5,866 bases of DNA from assembly GCA_030591195.1 (NCBI GenBank), contig JAUVBO010000227.1, forward strand, positions 1-5,866, written 5' to 3'. The stretch's first letter is position 1; every line of letters begins with the position of its first letter. The translations under genes and the position numbers were made by a program. This document shows positions 1 to 5,429 of the stretch, piece after piece. The notes beneath the pieces are model-generated. The model was not told the origin of the DNA and did not search any database. It saw only the letters and a program-made list of their open reading frames with translations. Source of the DNA: Pseudomonadota bacterium. Its GTDB lineage: Bacteria > Myxococcota > Polyangia > GCA-2747355 > JACKDQ01.

Positions 1-912
1 AAGGTGCCCGACGGCGAGGTGCGGCTCGCGCCGCGTCCCGCTCCGGGGTGGCAGGCTGCTGGCCCGATCAAGCGCTTCAACCAGAAGTCGCTCTTCGACC
101 GGATCAATGGGGCCGCGCCGCCCTACATCGCCGCCGGGTATCGCTACTCGCTCGGCGGCGAGTACCGCAAGGCCGGGCAGAAGGAGCCGGTGACGGTGGA
201 CGCGTACGACATGGGCAGCGTCGCCCAGGAGTTCGGCATGTATGCCCGGGAGCGCGACCCGAGCTACTCTTTCATCGCGATCGGTGATGAGGGCTACCTC
301 GCATCGGGCAGCCTCAACTTCTGGCGCGGCCGGTTCTACCTCAAGCTCGCCGGCTACGAGGAGGGCGAGGCGGCCGACCAGGCGCTGCGGGAGCTGGCCA
401 CGGCGCTGGCCAAGGCCTTGCCCGCCGAGCCAGCGGCGCTGAAGCAGGTCCGCGCCGCGCTCGGGCGGATGCCAGCTGCCGAGCGGGTGGCTCGGTCGGC
501 CGGGTTCTCGTTGCCCCCGCTCGACGGTATCGCCGGGCTCGCGGGGGCATACGTCGCTCGCTACCGGGTGGGCGGCAAGGAGGCCGGCGCCGAGTACCGG
601 CTGTTGCTGGTGCCCCTCGCTGACCGCGGCGCGAGCGAGCAGCGGCTGGCGGCTGTGGCCAAGCACTTCGCCAGCGCGGAGGGCGCCAAGGTCGAGGAGG
701 CGTCGACCAAGCTCGGCGAAGCGTCGGTCAAGCTGGTGCGAGTGAAGACCGACGGCTCGGTGGCCTTCTTCGTCGCCACGCCCGCGGGTCTGTGGGGAGC
801 GATCGGCCCGGGCGACGCAGCGACCGCCGCGGCCGTCCGACAGCGGTTGCTGGCGGCCGGCGAGGCCGGGCAAGGCGCGCCACCGAGCAACGAGGCGAAG
901 GGTAAGCAGTAG
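1..912 (+). CDS. DUF6599 family protein, 5'-partial, probably exported
   Basis: The frame is open to the left edge (AAG before the GTG at 4), so the true start and any signal peptide probably lie outside the window. Counting the GTG at 4 as residue 1, the DUF6599-like signature is visible: a GW near 15-16, then the block FDRINGAAPPYIAAGYRYS (31-49), which matches the family's Y-INGAA-LYL-YGF core. A VDAYDMGS..EFGMYARE segment (65-83), a GSLNFWRGRFYLKL segment (102-115) and a FFVATPAGLWGAIG segment near 255-268 follow. The last 20 residues are Gly/Ala/Pro/Lys-rich and look like a disordered tail. No catalytic motif or cysteine pair is visible and the family has no function that I know. It ends 19 bases before the DUF362 gene, which suggests one transcript and a shared role in the periplasmic redox module. 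The family call rests on recalled motif similarity, not a profile search. Confidence 0.78.
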   Translation, partial: KVPDGEVRLAPRPAPGWQAAGPIKRFNQKSLFDRINGAAPPYIAAGYRYSLGGEYRKAGQKEPVTVDAYDMGSVAQEFGMYARERDPSYSFIAIGDEGYLASGSLNFWRGRFYLKLAGYEEGEAADQALRELATALAKALPAEPAALKQVRAALGRMPAAERVARSAGFSLPPLDGIAGLAGAYVARYRVGGKEAGAEYRLLLVPLADRGASEQRLAAVAKHFASAEGAKVEEASTKLGEASVKLVRVKTDGSVAFFVATPAGLWGAIGPGDAATAAAVRQRLLAAGEAGQGAPPSNEAKGKQ

Positions 913-931: not shown

Positions 932-1954
932 ATGGGCGATTCGACGAAGAGGGACCCGCAGGAGCCGGCGGCAGGCAAGCCGGAGATCGACCCCGAGCGG
1001 CGTCAGGTGCTGGTGCGGCTCGGCAGCGCGGCGATGGTCGCCGCTGCCGCCGGCATCGGGACCTACGCCTTCTACGACGGCAAGAACCCGGTGCGCTCCC
1101 GCCGTGAGGCGGACCGGACCGTGCCCGACCACCGCGTCGAGGTGCCGAAGACGTCGCCGCGAATGGTGATCGCGCGGGGGCAGGACCCGGCGAAGAACGT
1201 GCGCGCTGCTCTCGACCGGATGGGTGGGATCAAGCGCTTCGTCAAGCCGGGTGACCGGGTGCTGGTCAAGCCGAACGTTGGCTGGGAGCGCAAGCCCGAG
1301 CAGGCCGCCAACACCGATCCGCGGGTGGTCGGCGCGGTGGTGCGCGCCTGTCGGGAGGCGGGCGCCAAGGAGGTGATCGTCACCGACTGCCCCGTGAACA
1401 ACCCCGAGCGTTGCTTCGCCCGCAGCGGCATCGCCGAGGCGGTGCGAGCCGCCGGGGGTCGGGTGGTGCTGCCGAGCCAGACTCGCTACGTGATGGTTGG
1501 TATCCCCGGTAAGCTCGGCCGCTGGCCGGTGCTCGAGCCGTTCGTCACGGCGAACAAGGTGATCAACGTGCCGATCGCCAAGCACCACTCGCTGACCCGG
1601 GCGACCATCGGGATGAAGAACTGGTACGGCATTCTTGGCGGCCAGCGCAACCGGCTGCACCAACGGATCGACGACTCGGTGGCCGAGCTGGCCGCGCTGA
1701 TGCGGCCGACGCTGACCGTGGTCGACGCCACCAGGCTGCTGGTACGCAACGGTCCCACTGGCGGGAGCCTCGCCGACGTCAAGCCTGGCGACGCCTTGGC
1801 GGTGAGCCTCGATCCGGTGGCCGCCGACGCCTGGGGCGTGACCCTGCTCGAGGGCGATCCGTCGCAGCTCGGCTGGCTGGTCAAGGGCGAGCGCAAGATG
1901 CTGGGCGTGATCGACTTCGCGTCCCTCTCCCCGCTCGAGATCAAGGTCGGGTGA
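932..1954 (+). CDS. DUF362 domain protein with Tat-type N-terminus
   Basis: This is a 340-residue protein. The N-terminus has PERRQVLVRLG (21-31) followed by a short Ala/Gly-rich hydrophobic stretch (32-47), a Tat-like signal or membrane anchor (R23, R24); no clear AxA cleavage site follows, so it may stay anchored. The DUF362 domain fills about 75-340: VLVKPNVGWERKPEQAANTD (110-129), VVRACREAGAKEVIVTDCP (136-154), NVPIAKHHSLTRATIGMKN (212-230) and the C-terminal VVDATRLLVRNGPTGG / VSLDPVAADAWG blocks. Many DUF362 proteins carry their own 4Fe-4S domain; this one does not, and a polyferredoxin is encoded next door instead. Three cysteines occur (C140, C153, C161). The ATG at 932 is preceded by GAGG at 926-929 (short spacing) and GGAG at 915-918 (long spacing). 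Its TGA is embedded in the GTGA start of the next gene, implying translational coupling. The molecular activity is unknown; a periplasmic redox role is inference from context. Confidence 0.88.
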   Translation: MGDSTKRDPQEPAAGKPEIDPERRQVLVRLGSAAMVAAAAGIGTYAFYDGKNPVRSRREADRTVPDHRVEVPKTSPRMVIARGQDPAKNVRAALDRMGGIKRFVKPGDRVLVKPNVGWERKPEQAANTDPRVVGAVVRACREAGAKEVIVTDCPVNNPERCFARSGIAEAVRAAGGRVVLPSQTRYVMVGIPGKLGRWPVLEPFVTANKVINVPIAKHHSLTRATIGMKNWYGILGGQRNRLHQRIDDSVAELAALMRPTLTVVDATRLLVRNGPTGGSLADVKPGDALAVSLDPVAADAWGVTLLEGDPSQLGWLVKGERKMLGVIDFASLSPLEIKVG

Positions 1955-3465
1955 TCGTGCGCTGGCTGACGATCAGGCGGATCTATCAGATCTTCTTCCT
2001 GCTGCTGTTCTTCGCTCTGCTGCTGCTCGCCGGCACCGGCCGCGTCGGGCGCTTGCCGGTCTCGTTGGTCCTCGAGGCCGACCCGCTGCTCGCCCTCGCC
2101 TCGGCGCTGTCGAGCCAGGTGGTCTTCTCGGGCATGGCGCTGGCGCTGGTAGTGGTGCTGCTGACGCTGGTCTTCGGGCGGCTCTTCTGCTCGTGGATCT
2201 GCCCGCTGGGGATCCTCAACCACGGAGTGAGCGCCCTGCGCTGGCCGCTCAAGCAGCGGGAGCGGGTCGAGGCCAACCGCTGGCGGCCGGTCTACCAGAC
2301 CAAGTATTACCTGCTGGTCGGCTTCCTCGTGCTCTCGGCCCTCGGTCTGCTGCAGGTCGGGCTACTCGATCCGATCGCGTTGATCACCCGGACGATGGCC
2401 GTCACCGTGCTCCCCGGGCTTCAGCTCTCGGGGGCCCCGCTTTACGCGGCCCAGCCGACCTACGCCGGCGGCTGGCTGGTGGGCGGGCTGTTGGTGTTGA
2501 TCCTGCTCGCCAACCGCTGGGTGATGCGGCTCTGGTGCCGGGTGCTCTGCCCGCTCGGCGCGTTGCTCGGCCTGCTGGCGAAGTTCTCGCTGCTGCGGAT
2601 CCACCGCGACGAGCGGGCCTGCATCGCGTGCGGCAAGTGCGCCGCCGACTGCCACGGCGCCTGCGACCCGCAGGGCGAGCTGCGCTTCAGCGACTGCGTG
2701 ATGTGCCTCAACTGCGTCGACGCCTGCCCCCAGGACGGCGCGCTCAGCTACGGGCTGTTGCCGGCGACATCCAGCGAGGTGCCGGCGCCGGACCTGTCGC
2801 GACGCAGGACCGTTATCGCCCTCGCCAGCGGCGCGGTTCTCGCGCCGGTGCTCCGCACCAGCCACGGCGTCGAGCAGGGGGCGCGCCACGACGTGATCCG
2901 TCCGCCGGGCTCCCTTGGCGAGGTGGACTTCGCCGCCAAGTGCGTCAAGTGCAACGCCTGCACCCGGGTCTGCCCGACGGGGGTGATCCAGCCGGCGGCG
3001 CTCCAGGCCGGCTTCGAGGGGCTCTGGACGCCGGTGTTGCAGTACGATGTCGGCTTCTGCTCGCCCGACTGCAACCTCTGCAGCCAGGTCTGCCCGACGG
3101 GCGCAATCGCCCCGCTCACCATCGCCGATCGCCTGGGCAAGCCGCCCGACGGCAAGCCGCTCAAGCTCGGCACGGCGTTCTACGACCGCGGCCGCTGCCT
3201 GCCGTGGGCGATGGGCACCCCATGCATCGTCTGCGAGGAGGTTTGCCCGGTCTCGCCCAAGGCGATCTGGATCGAGGAGGCCGAGGTCAAGCGTCAGGAT
3301 GGCAGCAAGGTCAAGGTCCACCTGCCCTACCTCGACCCCGCGCGCTGCATCGGCTGCGGCACCTGCCAGTTCCGTTGTCCGGTGGGGGCTCAGGCGGCGA
3401 TTCGCGTCAGCTCCGTTGGCGAGACCCGGTCACCCAATAACCAGATGCTGCTCAAGTCCTACTGA
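1951..3465 (+). CDS. Fused NapH/MauN-like and NapG/MauM-like membrane polyferredoxin
   Basis: This 504-residue protein is two known partners in one chain. Residues 1-270 resemble NapH/MauN: hydrophobic helices near 11-29, 55-78, 118-138 and 174-192, the paired CxxxCP motifs C80-C84 (FCSWICPLG) and C196-C200 (WCRVLCPLG), then ferredoxin motifs at C224/C227/C230/C234 and C249/C252/C255/C259. Residues 281-490 resemble NapG/MauM: a Tat-like SRRRTVIALASGAVLA, then clusters at C331-C341, C370-C381, C416/C425/C428/C432 with the long first gap and CLPW typical of NapG, and C466-C476. Six [4Fe-4S] clusters are predicted. NapGH pairs are known to pass electrons from quinol to periplasmic acceptors; the same role is inferred here, with the DUF362 protein as the likely partner. 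No nitrate reductase or methylamine dehydrogenase subunit is nearby, so a nap or mau symbol is not justified. The GTG start overlaps the upstream stop by four bases, with AAGG at 1943-1946 as a weak ribosome binding site. Confidence 0.93.
   Translation: MIVRWLTIRRIYQIFFLLLFFALLLLAGTGRVGRLPVSLVLEADPLLALASALSSQVVFSGMALALVVVLLTLVFGRLFCSWICPLGILNHGVSALRWPLKQRERVEANRWRPVYQTKYYLLVGFLVLSALGLLQVGLLDPIALITRTMAVTVLPGLQLSGAPLYAAQPTYAGGWLVGGLLVLILLANRWVMRLWCRVLCPLGALLGLLAKFSLLRIHRDERACIACGKCAADCHGACDPQGELRFSDCVMCLNCVDACPQDGALSYGLLPATSSEVPAPDLSRRRTVIALASGAVLAPVLRTSHGVEQGARHDVIRPPGSLGEVDFAAKCVKCNACTRVCPTGVIQPAALQAGFEGLWTPVLQYDVGFCSPDCNLCSQVCPTGAIAPLTIADRLGKPPDGKPLKLGTAFYDRGRCLPWAMGTPCIVCEEVCPVSPKAIWIEEAEVKRQDGSKVKVHLPYLDPARCIGCGTCQFRCPVGAQAAIRVSSVGETRSPNNQMLLKSY
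2791..2859 (+). other. Internal Tat-like motif and hydrophobic segment at fusion joint
   Basis: Residues 281-303 of the polyferredoxin read DLSRRRTVIALASGAVLAPV and then LRT. The order S-R-R-R-T-V-I followed by a short, weakly hydrophobic Ala/Gly/Leu stretch and a basic residue is what a Tat signal peptide looks like, and it sits where the signal of a separate NapG protein would be. Being about 280 residues inside the chain, after four membrane helices, it may act as a fifth, Tat-dependent membrane segment that places the last four clusters in the periplasm. Multi-span proteins whose last segment is Tat-dependent are known (actinobacterial Rieske proteins). The motif is seen in the sequence; the topology is inference. 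Confidence 0.6.
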
Positions 3466-3523: not shown

Positions 3524-5266
3524 GTGCTGCTGCTCACCAGGGAGAGTACGCTGTCGCTCCAGCCCAAGCCGCGCAGTCCGACGCGAGACCGCTTGCTCTA
3601 CGGGCCGGTGCACGGCCGGCTCACCGACGACGATCGCCAGCGGCGGCTGCTGCTCTACCTCTTCATGACCGTCGGTATTCCGCTGCTGCTGATCTTCGGC
3701 GCCGGGGACCTGCTGGAGGGGGACTTCACCGAGGCTGCAGGCGATCTCGGATCGGTGGGGGTGCTCGTGATCGCCGCGCTGGTGCTACGCCGACTGCCCG
3801 ACGGGCGACCGGTCTTCATCGCGGTGACCGCGGTGATCGCTATGCACCTCGGCAGCCTGTTCGTCGCGGGCGGCGAGGCCGGCGAGAAGGGCGTCTGGCT
3901 GTTCATCCTGCCGGGGTTGGCGCACTTTCTCTGCGGCCAGTCGGTGGGGATGATCTGCTCGGTGGTGGGCCTGGTGACGGCGGTGGCGATCAGCCTCGGC
4001 TCGGGCATCGAGCCCTACACGCCGCAGCTGTTTGTCCGCCTGATCGCCGCCTACGTCATGATCATGCTGATGACACACTTCTACGAGCGGATCCGTGATC
4101 GTTCGATCCGTGAGGCCAACCAAGCCAGCGCCGCCAAGGACCGCTTTCTGGCGACTGTCAGCCACGAGCTCCGGACCCCGATGAATGGCGTGCTCGGCAT
4201 GGCGGGCCTGCTGGTCGAAGAGTCCGAGCCCGAGAGCACCGAGCGAGACTACGCGACGACGATCAAGCGCAGCGCCGAGTCGATGGTGGTGATTCTCGAT
4301 GATATCTTCGATCTGGCGAAGGTCGATCAGGGACAGATCGAGCTGCAGCGAGCGAGCTTCGACCCGGTCCAGCTGGTGGCAGACGTGGTAGCCCTGCTCG
4401 CGCCGACGGCGTGCCAGAAGCGCATCGGCCTGCGTCCGGAGGTCGGCGACTGCACGTCGCAGGAGCTGATGGGTGACGCCGATCGCTTGCGTCAGGTGCT
4501 GCTCAACCTGGCCGGCAACGCGGTCAAGTTCACCGAGCGGGGCGAGGTGACCATCGAGCTGTCGACCAAGCCCCTCGGCGGCGCGGTGGACGCGACGTTC
4601 GCCGTGCGGGACACCGGCCCCGGTATACCGCACGACCAGCGGGACGACGTCTTCGATCCCTTCGTCAAGCTCGATCCAGCGGCCAGCGGCTCGGGCCTCG
4701 GGCTGCCGATCTCCCGCCGGCTGGTCCGCCAGATGGGCGGCGAGCTGACCGTCGAGAGCGCACTGCGGCAGGGATCGGTCTTCCGCTTCGCGATCTGCCT
4801 CGAGGCCGCGTCGGCGGCGGAGGAGCAGCCCGCAGCGACGCTAACGGCCGATCCGGTGACGCTCAAGCCGCTGCGGATTCTGGTCGCCGAGGATGACCCG
4901 ATCAGCCAGCGGGTGGTCAGGCGCCTGCTCGAGAAACGAGGCCACCTGGTTCAGGTCGTTGGCGACGGCCGCGAGGTGATCCGGGTGCTCGAGATCGAGC
5001 GATTCGACGCGATCCTGATGGACGTGCAGATGCCGGTGCTCGACGGGCTGGATGCCACCCGTCGGATACGTGCCTCGACGCGGGTCAAGGACCCCCGGGT
5101 GCCGATCGTGGCGATGACGGCCTATGCGATGAAGGGCGACCGCGAGCGTTGCCTGGCTGCCGGAATGACGGGCTACATCACCAAGCCCGTCTCGGCAGGG
5201 GCGCTGCTCGGCGCCCTGGCGGAGACCGTCGACCAGCGAGTGGAAGGATCAAGGATCAATGGCTAA
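3524..5266 (+). CDS. Membrane-bound hybrid sensor histidine kinase with C-terminal receiver
   Basis: With the GTG at 3524 this is 580 residues. Residues 41-186 hold about five or six hydrophobic segments (near 41-60, 76-88, 96-114, 123-137, 140-158, 166-185) with short loops, so the sensor is a membrane bundle without a large periplasmic domain. A HisKA domain follows with the H-box TVSHELRTPMNG (phosphoacceptor H214). The HATPase_c domain has its N-box around N328/N332 (NLAGNAVKFT), G1 DTGPGIP (363-369) and G2 GSGLGLPIS (389-397). The receiver spans about 450-570: acidic E456-D457-D458, phospho-acceptor D500 in LMDVQMPVLDG, T532 and K554 of YITKP. No HPt or output domain is seen, so signal must pass to an unlinked partner. 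The start is uncertain: the frame is open far upstream inside the previous gene. GTG 3524 lacks a Shine-Dalgarno, CTG 3551 follows a good one (GGGAG, 3540-3544), and TTG 3593 and GTG 3608 are also possible. Domain calls are firm; the signal sensed is unknown. Confidence 0.93.
   Translation: MLLLTRESTLSLQPKPRSPTRDRLLYGPVHGRLTDDDRQRRLLLYLFMTVGIPLLLIFGAGDLLEGDFTEAAGDLGSVGVLVIAALVLRRLPDGRPVFIAVTAVIAMHLGSLFVAGGEAGEKGVWLFILPGLAHFLCGQSVGMICSVVGLVTAVAISLGSGIEPYTPQLFVRLIAAYVMIMLMTHFYERIRDRSIREANQASAAKDRFLATVSHELRTPMNGVLGMAGLLVEESEPESTERDYATTIKRSAESMVVILDDIFDLAKVDQGQIELQRASFDPVQLVADVVALLAPTACQKRIGLRPEVGDCTSQELMGDADRLRQVLLNLAGNAVKFTERGEVTIELSTKPLGGAVDATFAVRDTGPGIPHDQRDDVFDPFVKLDPAASGSGLGLPISRRLVRQMGGELTVESALRQGSVFRFAICLEAASAAEEQPAATLTADPVTLKPLRILVAEDDPISQRVVRRLLEKRGHLVQVVGDGREVIRVLEIERFDAILMDVQMPVLDGLDATRRIRASTRVKDPRVPIVAMTAYAMKGDRERCLAAGMTGYITKPVSAGALLGALAETVDQRVEGSRING
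3539..3546 (+). promoter_or_regulatory. Strong Shine-Dalgarno-like site AGGGAGAG without a standard start codon
   Basis: AGGGAGAG is the best ribosome-binding sequence near the start of the kinase gene. The only in-frame codon at suitable distance is CTG at 3551, six bases after the GGAG core. It may mark a rare CTG start or be a coincidence inside the coding region that begins at GTG 3524. Confidence 0.35.
5242..5257 (+). promoter_or_regulatory. Ribosome binding region with tandem AAGGATC repeat
   Basis: AAGGATC occurs twice head to tail (5244-5250 and 5251-5257) just before the ATG at 5259. The upstream copy is part of GGAAGGA (5242-5248), ten bases from the ATG, and is the better placed Shine-Dalgarno; the downstream AAGGA is only three bases away. 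The repeat lies inside the last codons of the kinase gene, so translation of the small protein is probably coupled to the kinase. Confidence 0.55.
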
Positions 5267-5429
5267 GTGTCAGCAGTGTGGCGAAGATAGCGACGAGATC
5301 ACCCGGGTCAAGGTCGACCGCAAGACGGTGCGGATGTGCGAGACCTGCCTCGAGGAACACCAGGAGCAGGAGGAGATCGCCGCCGAGGCCCAGGGCGTGA
5401 TGCGCGGCCTGATGGAGTACAAGGGTTGA
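5259..5429 (+). CDS. Small zinc-ribbon protein, 56 residues, unknown function
   Basis: An ATG at 5259 opens a 56-codon frame ending in TGA at 5427-5429, overlapping the kinase stop by eight bases. The product starts MAKCQQCGEDSDEITRVKVD and has two CxxC pairs, C4/C7 and C27/C30, separated by 19 residues: a treble-clef or zinc-ribbon knuckle that should bind one metal ion. The second half (31-56) is strongly acidic and Glu/Gln-rich (EEHQEQEEIAAEAQ), probably a helix, ending in VMRGLMEYKG. There is no signal peptide, so it is cytoplasmic. Codon use matches the neighbours and a good ribosome binding site precedes it, so it is very likely real despite its size. I do not recognise a named function. 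Small zinc ribbons of this type may bind RNA, DNA or a protein partner; the overlap with the kinase suggests co-expression but not necessarily shared function. Confidence 0.82.
   Translation: MAKCQQCGEDSDEITRVKVDRKTVRMCETCLEEHQEQEEIAAEAQGVMRGLMEYKG

Follow-up and report, generated by a model that had tools for sequence, protein, structure and literature searches.

A fused polyferredoxin with an internal Tat motif and its DUF362 partner, a possible user of the nickel-pincer cofactor

The window (the whole 5.9 kb stretch of DNA that was analyzed) encodes a fused polyferredoxin, hereafter called the wire, whose gene is preceded by genes for a DUF6599 protein and a DUF362 protein (Table 1). Polyferredoxins of this Sec/Tat kind are already known, and, judged against open-licence papers, the new part of the system is the DUF362 partner, which may be one of the long-sought other users of the rare nickel-pincer nucleotide cofactor (NPN). 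We slightly favor the hypothesis that the exported DUF362 protein, with its predicted LarA-type fold, is a periplasmic NPN redox protein that the dual Sec/Tat wire connects to quinone. A narrower version is put forward more tentatively: these DUF362 proteins would form a missing class of NPN proteins other than LarA, related to it but reduced to one domain and exported by Tat, in which NPN serves net, rather than hidden, periplasmic redox chemistry connected to the quinone pool.

Table 1. Coordinates of the features discussed, numbered from the first nucleotide of the window.
Feature	Position	Strand	Basis or remark
DUF6599 protein, 5′ end lost at contig start	1..912	+	PF20244, E 4.7e-36, 124.5 bits versus cut-off 27
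DUF362 protein, 340 aa, N-terminal RR and hydrophobic helix	932..1954	+	Predicted LarA N-domain fold
Tat-like signal/anchor of DUF362, residues 21-48, RR at 23-24	992..1075	+	Conservation, model
DUF362 K217-x-H219-x9-K229	1580..1618	+	hhalign to LarA His and Lys
NapH-NapG-like fused polyferredoxin, 504 aa	1951..3465	+	GTG start overlaps DUF362 stop
NapH-like half	1951..2760	+	Four hydrophobic helices, two CxxxCP motifs, two ferredoxin-type clusters
First CxxxCP pair, C80-C84	2188..2202	+	80/80 loci (best 80 of at least 553)
Second CxxxCP pair, C196-C200	2536..2550	+	80/80 loci (best 80 of at least 553)
Two cytoplasmic-side [4Fe-4S] motifs, C224-C259	2620..2727	+	Cys conservation, Fer4 families
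Internal Tat motif SRRRTVI, residues 283-289	2797..2817	+	RR conservation
Fifth hydrophobic segment, residues 287-301, then R302 and more positive charge	2809..2853	+	Kyte-Doolittle
NapG-like half, four [4Fe-4S] motifs, C331-C476	2941..3378	+	Profile matches, Cys conservation

The fused polyferredoxin and its internal Tat motif

The reading frame of the wire is open from its GTG start at 1951 to the stop codon ending at 3465. A database protein (P0002) is 100% identical to the window protein but is 502 amino acids long, and thus its start was probably called two codons later than this GTG. Both halves that the initial annotation had proposed for the 504-residue frame were recovered by separate profile matches, with residues 1-282 matching NapH models (TIGR02163, E 9.2e-27; NF007013, E 1.5e-26) and residues 277-504 matching NapG/MauM models (NF007012, E 1.2e-23; TIGR00397, E 9.7e-23). 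Because all half scores fall below the curated cut-offs (94.2 versus 213.05 bits for the NapH model TIGR02163, and 83.6 versus 269 for the NapG model NF007012), we describe the halves as NapH-like and NapG-like rather than as NapH and NapG proper. By profile and cluster motifs, NapG/NapH and MauM/MauN are built from the same two halves, but these are pairs of proteins with other gene neighbors, whereas the window encodes one sub-threshold chain.

The similarity is far beyond chance, since 7949 of the 7999 candidates scored in a homologue search reach E 1e-3; not all of these candidates need be fusions, and the best 120 that were listed are 501-562 amino acids long. Conservation across genomes was judged from 80 loci, which are the best 80 of at least 553 confirmed genome loci. 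A model of the wire produced by AlphaFold2 with 20 sequences reached a pLDDT of 43 and was set aside, and searches of PDB sequences with the wire returned only matches that are short ferredoxin-type or plainly unrelated.

The hydrophobic peaks of the NapH-like half lie at residues 11-29, 57-75, 121-139 and 169-187, which we read as four helices from the hydropathy profile alongside NapH, the profile having further overlapping peaks. Twenty-eight cysteines, all except C238, are each conserved in at least 79 of the 80 loci (best 80 of at least 553). The six [4Fe-4S] motifs and both CxxxCP motifs described in the initial annotation are present. Its count of six clusters may be too low, however, since 28 conserved cysteines are four beyond the need of six clusters and are enough for seven. 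From their sequence, the CxxxCP pairs C80/C84 and C196/C200 could form the site of this candidate seventh cluster.

The sequence SRRRTVI stands at residues 283-289, as had been claimed. The arginine pair is retained at the aligned position in 119 of the best 120 homologues listed, the exception (P0024) carrying KR, and in all 81 aligned sequences (the best 80 of at least 553 genome loci plus the window), which rules out a chance origin. The hydrophobic segment at residues 287-301 has a 15-residue Kyte-Doolittle mean of 2.15, versus 3.03 for TM1 of the same protein. This last helix is less hydrophobic than TM1 in 64 of 79 sequences and not in the other 15, with weakness scored by the Kyte-Doolittle proxy rather than by the dG scale of PMC5449189. 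All 81 sequences (again the best 80 of at least 553 loci plus the window) carry at least two lysine or arginine residues within positions 302-318.

A NapH-NapG fusion with an internal Tat signal has already been described by Tooke et al. (2017; PMC5449189) for Q1NSB0 from the delta proteobacterium MLMS-1, a protein for which these authors counted seven clusters. In the export experiments of that paper on which we draw, Q1NSB0 TMD-MBP and TMD-AmiA fusions were exported, a change of RR to KK abolished export, and export of TMD-AmiA was lost also in a tat- strain. Such proteins are listed there from Nitrospirae, Latescibacteria, Caldithrix and others. Compared by description, the window protein resembles Q1NSB0 in being a fusion with five helices, in having RR directly before a weak helix 5, and in carrying positive charge after it; helix 5 spans residues 338-359 of Q1NSB0 versus about 287-301 of the window protein. 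The actinobacterial Rieske protein and Sco3746, as portrayed in the same source (PMC5449189), likewise have Sec helices, after which come a single Tat-dependent helix and a cofactor domain, although these cofactor domains are unrelated to that of the window protein. Because the mechanism was demonstrated experimentally for the MLMS-1 protein, the earlier proposal that Sec inserts four helices before Tat takes over is supported here by analogy, but its novelty is lost. The words DUF362 and DUF6599 are absent from PMC5449189.

Gene neighborhood of the wire

The wire resides in neither a Nap nor a Mau setting but in a DUF6599-DUF362 system, which had gone unmentioned in the initial annotation. 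Among the best 80 of at least 553 loci, 73 have DUF362 and 53 have DUF6599 no more than 3 kb away from the wire; in three of the 53, DUF6599 is in the same frame as the fused chain. When 74 DUF362 proteins are aligned, R23 is present in 69 and R24 in 70, and the structural model shows a helix at residues 21-48. Clusters of antisense open reading frames among the neighbors were taken to be shadows of the coding frames and disregarded.

This neighborhood bears on the possibility that the wire is a NapGH/MauMN-type quinol dehydrogenase, fused by happenstance and feeding another periplasmic reductase. The best named models are indeed NapH and NapG/MauM, and NapGH is presented as a quinol dehydrogenase in PMC5449189. 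However, the scores are far under the curated cut-offs and the recurrent neighbors are DUF362 and DUF6599, and we consider this explanation highly improbable.

In 24 of the best 80 of at least 553 loci, the strand that encodes the wire also carries an aldo/keto reductase frame within 2.5 kb of it. Twenty-three of these 24 reductases have an RR signal, all 24 have a CxxC near the C-terminus, and at one locus (L103) the reductase gene directly follows that of the wire. Such linkage would be expected if the redox partner of the wire were this Tat-exported reductase, with DUF362 acting as its maturation or cofactor-delivery factor. We regard this arrangement as very unlikely, given that no aldo/keto reductase was found within 2.5 kb on the wire strand in the other 56 of the 80 loci, some of which are cut short, whereas DUF362 is mostly present there.

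The DUF362 partner, LarA and the lar genes

The hypothesis that the DUF362 partner uses NPN begins with its predicted structure. No other fold comes close to the LarA-type NPN proteins as a match for the DUF362 model (pLDDT 91.5), and the 12 LarA-type rows align model residues 79-312 with chain residues no higher than 286. DUF362 and the LarA superfamily (DUF2088, the NPN-dependent racemases and epimerases), which are assigned to the common Pfam clan CL0471 in PMC11770544, are alike in the predicted fold of the N-terminal domain and in the positions of a histidine and a lysine. Unlike LarA, DUF362 has its own Tat-like signal and is linked to the wire, and it lacks the C-terminal LarA domain, the protein ending at residue 340. 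A Pfam scan of DUF362 gave PF04015 as the sole family at E <= 0.01, with no match to Lar_N (PF09861), and PDB sequence searches with this protein returned no match.

Profile alignment suggests that H219 and K229 are likely counterparts of LarA His174, the general acid/base, and Lys184, which carries NPN. With hhalign, the two residues fall on the LarA His and on the Lys ten residues later in one LarA alignment of 12 sequences. The match between the profiles is weak (E 0.013-0.044 and HH probability 1-3% in six runs that share one LarA alignment), and hhalign in global mode aligned other regions. Both residues are invariant in a DUF362 alignment (A2) of 68 sequences, and position 229 is lysine in 71 of the 72 sequences with a residue there, its equivalence to Lys184 being this weak profile match. 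A role of His243 as nickel ligand finds no support in the profile alignment, which puts it on a later LarA histidine and not on the His200 position. In the same weak alignment, DUF362 has no visible counterpart of LarA His108 (the second catalytic histidine, in TGxH) and no secure one of the nickel ligand His200.

A second line of evidence comes from the genes for cofactor synthesis. Although no lar gene lies within the window, larB, larC and larE adjoin the wire-DUF362 system in three separate branches of the tree. We drew 50 host genomes from the 80 loci; most of the 30 omitted loci are short or truncated, and seven of the eight lar-linked Acidobacteria are among them, whereas two of the 50 (L008 and L036) carry lar genes within the locus. 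LarB is present in 44 of these 50 wire genomes, 15 of the 44 being without LarA, and five of the 50 are without both LarB and LarC. According to PMC11796402, more than 1,000 genomes were surveyed and larA is missing from approximately 15% of them although larB, larE and larC are present, and the cofactor is probably used there in unidentified proteins; for cyanobacteria, an NPN-using fold distinct from LarA is expected in the same account.

Our genome surveys asked for a completeness of at least 85, with at most seven scored candidates per genome for Bacteroidota wires and at most ten in another survey, and the LarB/DUF362 co-occurrence tests ignore phylogeny. In the class of L008, two of the six genomes with DUF362, all six of which were examined, have this type of DUF362 with no wire nearby (G260 and G384), and G260 is one of four genomes in which DUF362 and LarB overlap. 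LarB occurs without Lar_N or DUF362 in 29 of 118 genomes in the phylum of L002, in 3 of 10 genomes from the L008 class, and in three of six named controls (Corynebacterium glutamicum, Methanocaldococcus jannaschii and Haloferax volcanii).

These distributions must also be weighed against an alternative wherein the dual Sec/Tat polyferredoxin is accompanied by a LarA-fold DUF362 that does not bind NPN, but holds another cofactor or serves as a structural subunit, the larBCE linkage merely reflecting a shared metabolic niche. In Bacteroidota (the phylum of L073), 14 of 19 wire genomes are without LarB, which rules out a family-wide rule that a wire implies NPN; 18 of these 19 wires are distant. 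Yet DUF362 adjoins the wire in 13 of the 14 regions examined (of the 19), and all 13 proteins keep the same histidine and lysine. Therefore, either these proteins do not use NPN or the two residues are not diagnostic. The control Bacteroides ihuae likewise has DUF362 while LarB is absent, and a common fold proves no function. On the other hand, larB, larC and larE occur together near the system at three separate places in the tree, and LarB is present in many genomes that have no Lar_N. Taken together, we judge an NPN-independent DUF362 to be a serious but rather unlikely explanation, and we retain the hypothesis of an NPN-using partner.

Proposed arrangement and its meaning

According to our preferred hypothesis, Sec would insert the four helices of the 504-residue protein, and the RR motif and the weak fifth helix would, by analogy with the MLMS-1 protein, pass the four-cluster domain, already folded, on to Tat. 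The resulting iron-sulfur wire would link the membrane's quinone side with the periplasm. There it would contact its usual partner, the DUF362 protein of the gene directly upstream, which has its own putative Tat signal and, in the structural model, the N-terminal cofactor-binding fold of LarA. DUF6599 and, in many lineages, the aldo/keto reductase, which is Tat-exported and has cysteine motifs near its C-terminus, may be accessory periplasmic parts. We lean toward a direction of flow in which oxidation of a substrate would feed quinone.

A DUF362 protein with a Tat signal and a predicted LarA fold, linked to larBCE at three places in the tree, is present in many genomes that have larB, larC and larE but no larA. 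If the more tentative version of our hypothesis is correct, no NPN enzyme known to us would precede this protein either as one that works beyond the cytoplasm or as an oxidoreductase. The cofactor would be made inside the cell whereas the enzyme works outside, which would provide a reason for export by Tat. Furthermore, such a protein would account for some of the genomes in which NPN is made although LarA is absent, would add redox enzymes to a cofactor described for racemases and epimerases, and would give the polyferredoxin family a function.

The fused polyferredoxin and its Tat-like motif

The initial annotation described a single open frame that joins NapH-like and NapG-like halves, and this reading was borne out by profile searches. 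NapH/MauN models match residues 1-282 of the encoded polyferredoxin and NapG/MauM models match residues 277-504, with scores below curated cut-offs in both cases, and the RR motif it reported is in place. Among the best 120 homologues from a protein search in which 7999 candidates were scored, lengths range from 501 to 562 residues and 119 sequences carry RR at the aligned position. A genome scan confirmed at least 553 relatives, and the best 80 were kept as loci (L numbers), from records titled Nitrospirae, Magnetococcales, Planctomycetes, Acidobacteria, Myxococcota, Latescibacterota, Bacteroidota and others. RR is kept in all 81 sequences (80 loci plus the window), and the fusion with RR is beyond chance.

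Each of the 28 cysteines is conserved in at least 79 of the 80 loci. The motifs for the six clusters originally counted are present, and since 28 is seven times four, the two CxxxCP pairs may account for an additional cluster.

This architecture was recognised by bioinformatics and named polyferredoxin by Tooke et al. 2017 (PMC5449189), who describe a NapH-NapG fusion with RR ahead of a fifth helix and count seven clusters. MBP and AmiA placed on the five-helix portion of the MLMS-1 protein underwent Tat-dependent export, and Sec was kept from completing insertion by the weak hydrophobicity of helix 5 and the positive charges behind it (PMC5449189). The window protein, in which a weaker hydrophobic segment immediately follows RR, is similar: helix 5 scores 2.15 versus 3.03 for helix 1, on a scale simpler than that of Tooke et al., and K/R residues follow helix 5. 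Of 79 sequences, 64 likewise have a helix 5 that is less hydrophobic than helix 1, and all 81 of 81 have two or more K/R behind it. The originally proposed mechanism, Sec insertion of four helices followed by Tat transport of the cluster domain, is thus backed by analogy and is not new; the architecture was already known and had been read correctly. Judged by the MLMS-1 protein, dual targeting by Sec and Tat is very probable.

Operon partners

The DUF362 partner, a protein of 340 amino acids with a predicted LarA N-domain fold, is encoded within 3 kb of the polyferredoxin in 73 of the 80 loci, and DUF6599 in 53. Where at least 3 kb is available on each side (53 loci), DUF362 is present in 50, DUF6599 in 41 and neither in one. 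DUF362 carries an RR pair of its own (R23 in 69 and R24 in 70 of 74 aligned sequences). DUF6599 shares a frame with the polyferredoxin in three loci; in two of these, L050 and L075, Pfam matches place it behind the NapG half, so that it would be periplasmic provided Tat works.

Aldo/keto reductases (AKRs) are known as a family of cytoplasmic NADP enzymes. In 24 of 80 loci an AKR frame lies no more than 2.5 kb from the polyferredoxin and on its strand, with a CxxC close to the C-terminus in all 24 and an RR signal in 23, the other being a fragment; these Tat-like signals suggest that the linked AKRs are apparently exported. A radical SAM protein, which we take to be of the AmmeMemoRadiSam type, is encoded near the system in L075 (11851-13056) and in four other loci, and a MEMO-like family in three loci. 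A small frame at 5259-5429 of the window (about 56 codons; two CxxC pairs by eye) perhaps encodes a zinc ribbon.

Coordinates of the polyferredoxin, its neighbours and related frames
Feature	Location	Remarks
Polyferredoxin gene	window 1951-3465	single open frame, 504 codons plus stop
SRRRTVI motif	polyferredoxin residues 283-289	
Main hydrophobic peaks	polyferredoxin residues 11-29, 57-75, 121-139, 169-187	
DUF362 gene	window 932-1954	stop overlapped by polyferredoxin gene
DUF6599 gene	window 1-912	truncated at contig start; DUF362 gene next
Hybrid histidine kinase	window 3557-5266	MASE6, HisKA, HATPase, receiver domains; directly downstream; start codon uncertain
DUF6599-polyferredoxin frame	L050:6770-8941	724 codons stop to stop; record titled Acidobacteria
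DUF6599-polyferredoxin frame	L075:5855-7984	710 codons stop to stop; record titled Bryobacterales
DUF6599-polyferredoxin frame	L076:2786-4978	731 codons stop to stop; record titled Bryobacterales
AKR	L103:6656-7936	Tat-like RR signal family near polyferredoxin

Association with nickel-pincer nucleotide genes

Profiles for larB, larC and larE, the biosynthesis genes of the nickel-pincer nucleotide (NPN), match close to the system in nine of 80 loci: eight from Acidobacteria, and L008, from a record titled Gammaproteobacteria, with larE and larB 4-6 kb downstream. All three genes pass NCBIfam cut-offs in L036 and L008, the two loci so checked, the other seven being profile matches. They do likewise in G398, a genome from the class of L008, where larC-larE-larB-DUF6599-DUF362-polyferredoxin-AKR occupies a single strand between bases 101 and 7936 (evidently region L103). 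L104, close kin of L103, carries DUF362-polyferredoxin-AKR and then a LarA frame truncated at the contig end (69-5290).

In a midpoint-rooted FastTree of 87 polyferredoxins, the acidobacterial lar-linked sequences fall in one clade (support 1.0; lar genes in 8 of its 10 members), that of L008 is nearest Magnetococcales records, that of L103 is nearest L104 and L020, and the node common to L008 and L103 takes in 83 of the 87 tips. From these positions, lar linkage arose, or persisted, three times separately.

Among 50 polyferredoxin-bearing genomes, LarB is above cut-off in 44, LarC in 43 and Lar_N, the LarA N-terminal domain family, in 33. Fifteen of the 44 have no Lar_N above cut-off, including those of L002 and L020, each a chromosome in one contig; the six without LarB comprise four with Lar_N, maybe incomplete, and two with neither. 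The phylum of L002 (148 genomes; LarB in 118, Lar_N in 13, DUF362 in 92, polyferredoxin in 42) has LarB in 87 of 92 genomes with DUF362 versus 31 of 56 without (p 1.4e-8), and in 40 of 42 with the polyferredoxin versus 78 of 106 without (p 0.003), by tests that ignore phylogeny. In the class of L008 (275 genomes; LarB in 10, DUF362 in 6, Lar_N in 4), DUF362 and LarB occur together in four genomes (p 1.3e-5, or 2.4e-4 without the centre, phylogeny again ignored). In three of these (L008's genome, G282 and G398) DUF362 has the polyferredoxin next to it. G260, which completes the four, and G384, which lacks LarB, encode a different type of DUF362 that has no polyferredoxin nearby, and G237 gave just a weak match of 849 aa. 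In the control Synechococcus elongatus, LarB, LarC and DUF362 are present and Lar_N was not found.

Other observations argue against a general link to NPN. In the phylum of L073 (208 genomes), the polyferredoxin profile matches 19 genomes, 18 of them distantly (211-268 bits), and LarB occurs in 5 of these 19 versus 9 of the 189 others (p 0.004; 0.018 when the centre is left out; phylogeny ignored). Because LarB is absent from 14 of the 19, the system there may be a version that does not use NPN. DUF362 adjoins the polyferredoxin in 13 of 14 regions fetched from this phylum, and H219 and K229, the likely counterparts of LarA His and Lys residues, are kept in 13 of 13; L110-L120 and L122 have a distant fused polyferredoxin adjoining DUF362. 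Both Lar_N and DUF362 are missing from 29 of the 118 LarB genomes in the phylum of L002, from 3 of 10 in the class of L008 and from 3 of 6 LarB-bearing controls (Corynebacterium glutamicum, Methanocaldococcus jannaschii, Haloferax volcanii), and the control Bacteroides ihuae has DUF362 without LarB. The 29 (G059, G066, G077 and 26 others) make up a further set of orphan NPN makers; six such regions (L123-L128) hold LarB and LarC close together and gave no match to polyferredoxin, DUF362, DUF6599, LarE, LarA or AKR profiles.

A candidate route from NPN to quinone

In about 15% of surveyed genomes larA is absent although larB, larE and larC are present, and the cyanobacterial NPN user is considered likely to be a protein still to be found that differs from LarA in sequence and fold (PMC11796402). 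DUF362 serves as an outgroup in a paper on Lar, and no other paper joining DUF362 with NPN was found in the open-licence literature.

We propose that Sec would put four helices of the polyferredoxin into the membrane and Tat would carry out its four-cluster domain. NPN would be loaded on DUF362 in the cytoplasm, and DUF362, exported via its own Tat signal, would dock on the cluster domain, where NPN hydride chemistry would be divided into single electrons that pass through the clusters to quinone. Since NPN in LarA accepts hydride from 2-hydroxy acids, we lean towards oxidation of a periplasmic hydroxy compound.

We set our confidence slightly lower because the six DUF362-LarA profile runs are not independent of each other and because the controls and G260/G384 count against the link. 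That lar-linked DUF362s carry NPN seems to us reasonably likely, and the overall explanation, a Sec/Tat polyferredoxin linking an NPN-carrying DUF362 partner to quinone, is favoured by a smaller degree. That the DUF362 system is a net redox enzyme is a tentative proposal, to which we give somewhat less than even credence. In our view the operon is a novel variation on a known kind of system, in that a putative Sec/Tat polyferredoxin would serve a partner of predicted LarA fold, itself a probable NPN carrier. More tentatively still, DUF362 might represent a class of exported non-LarA NPN proteins with net redox chemistry, wired to quinone.
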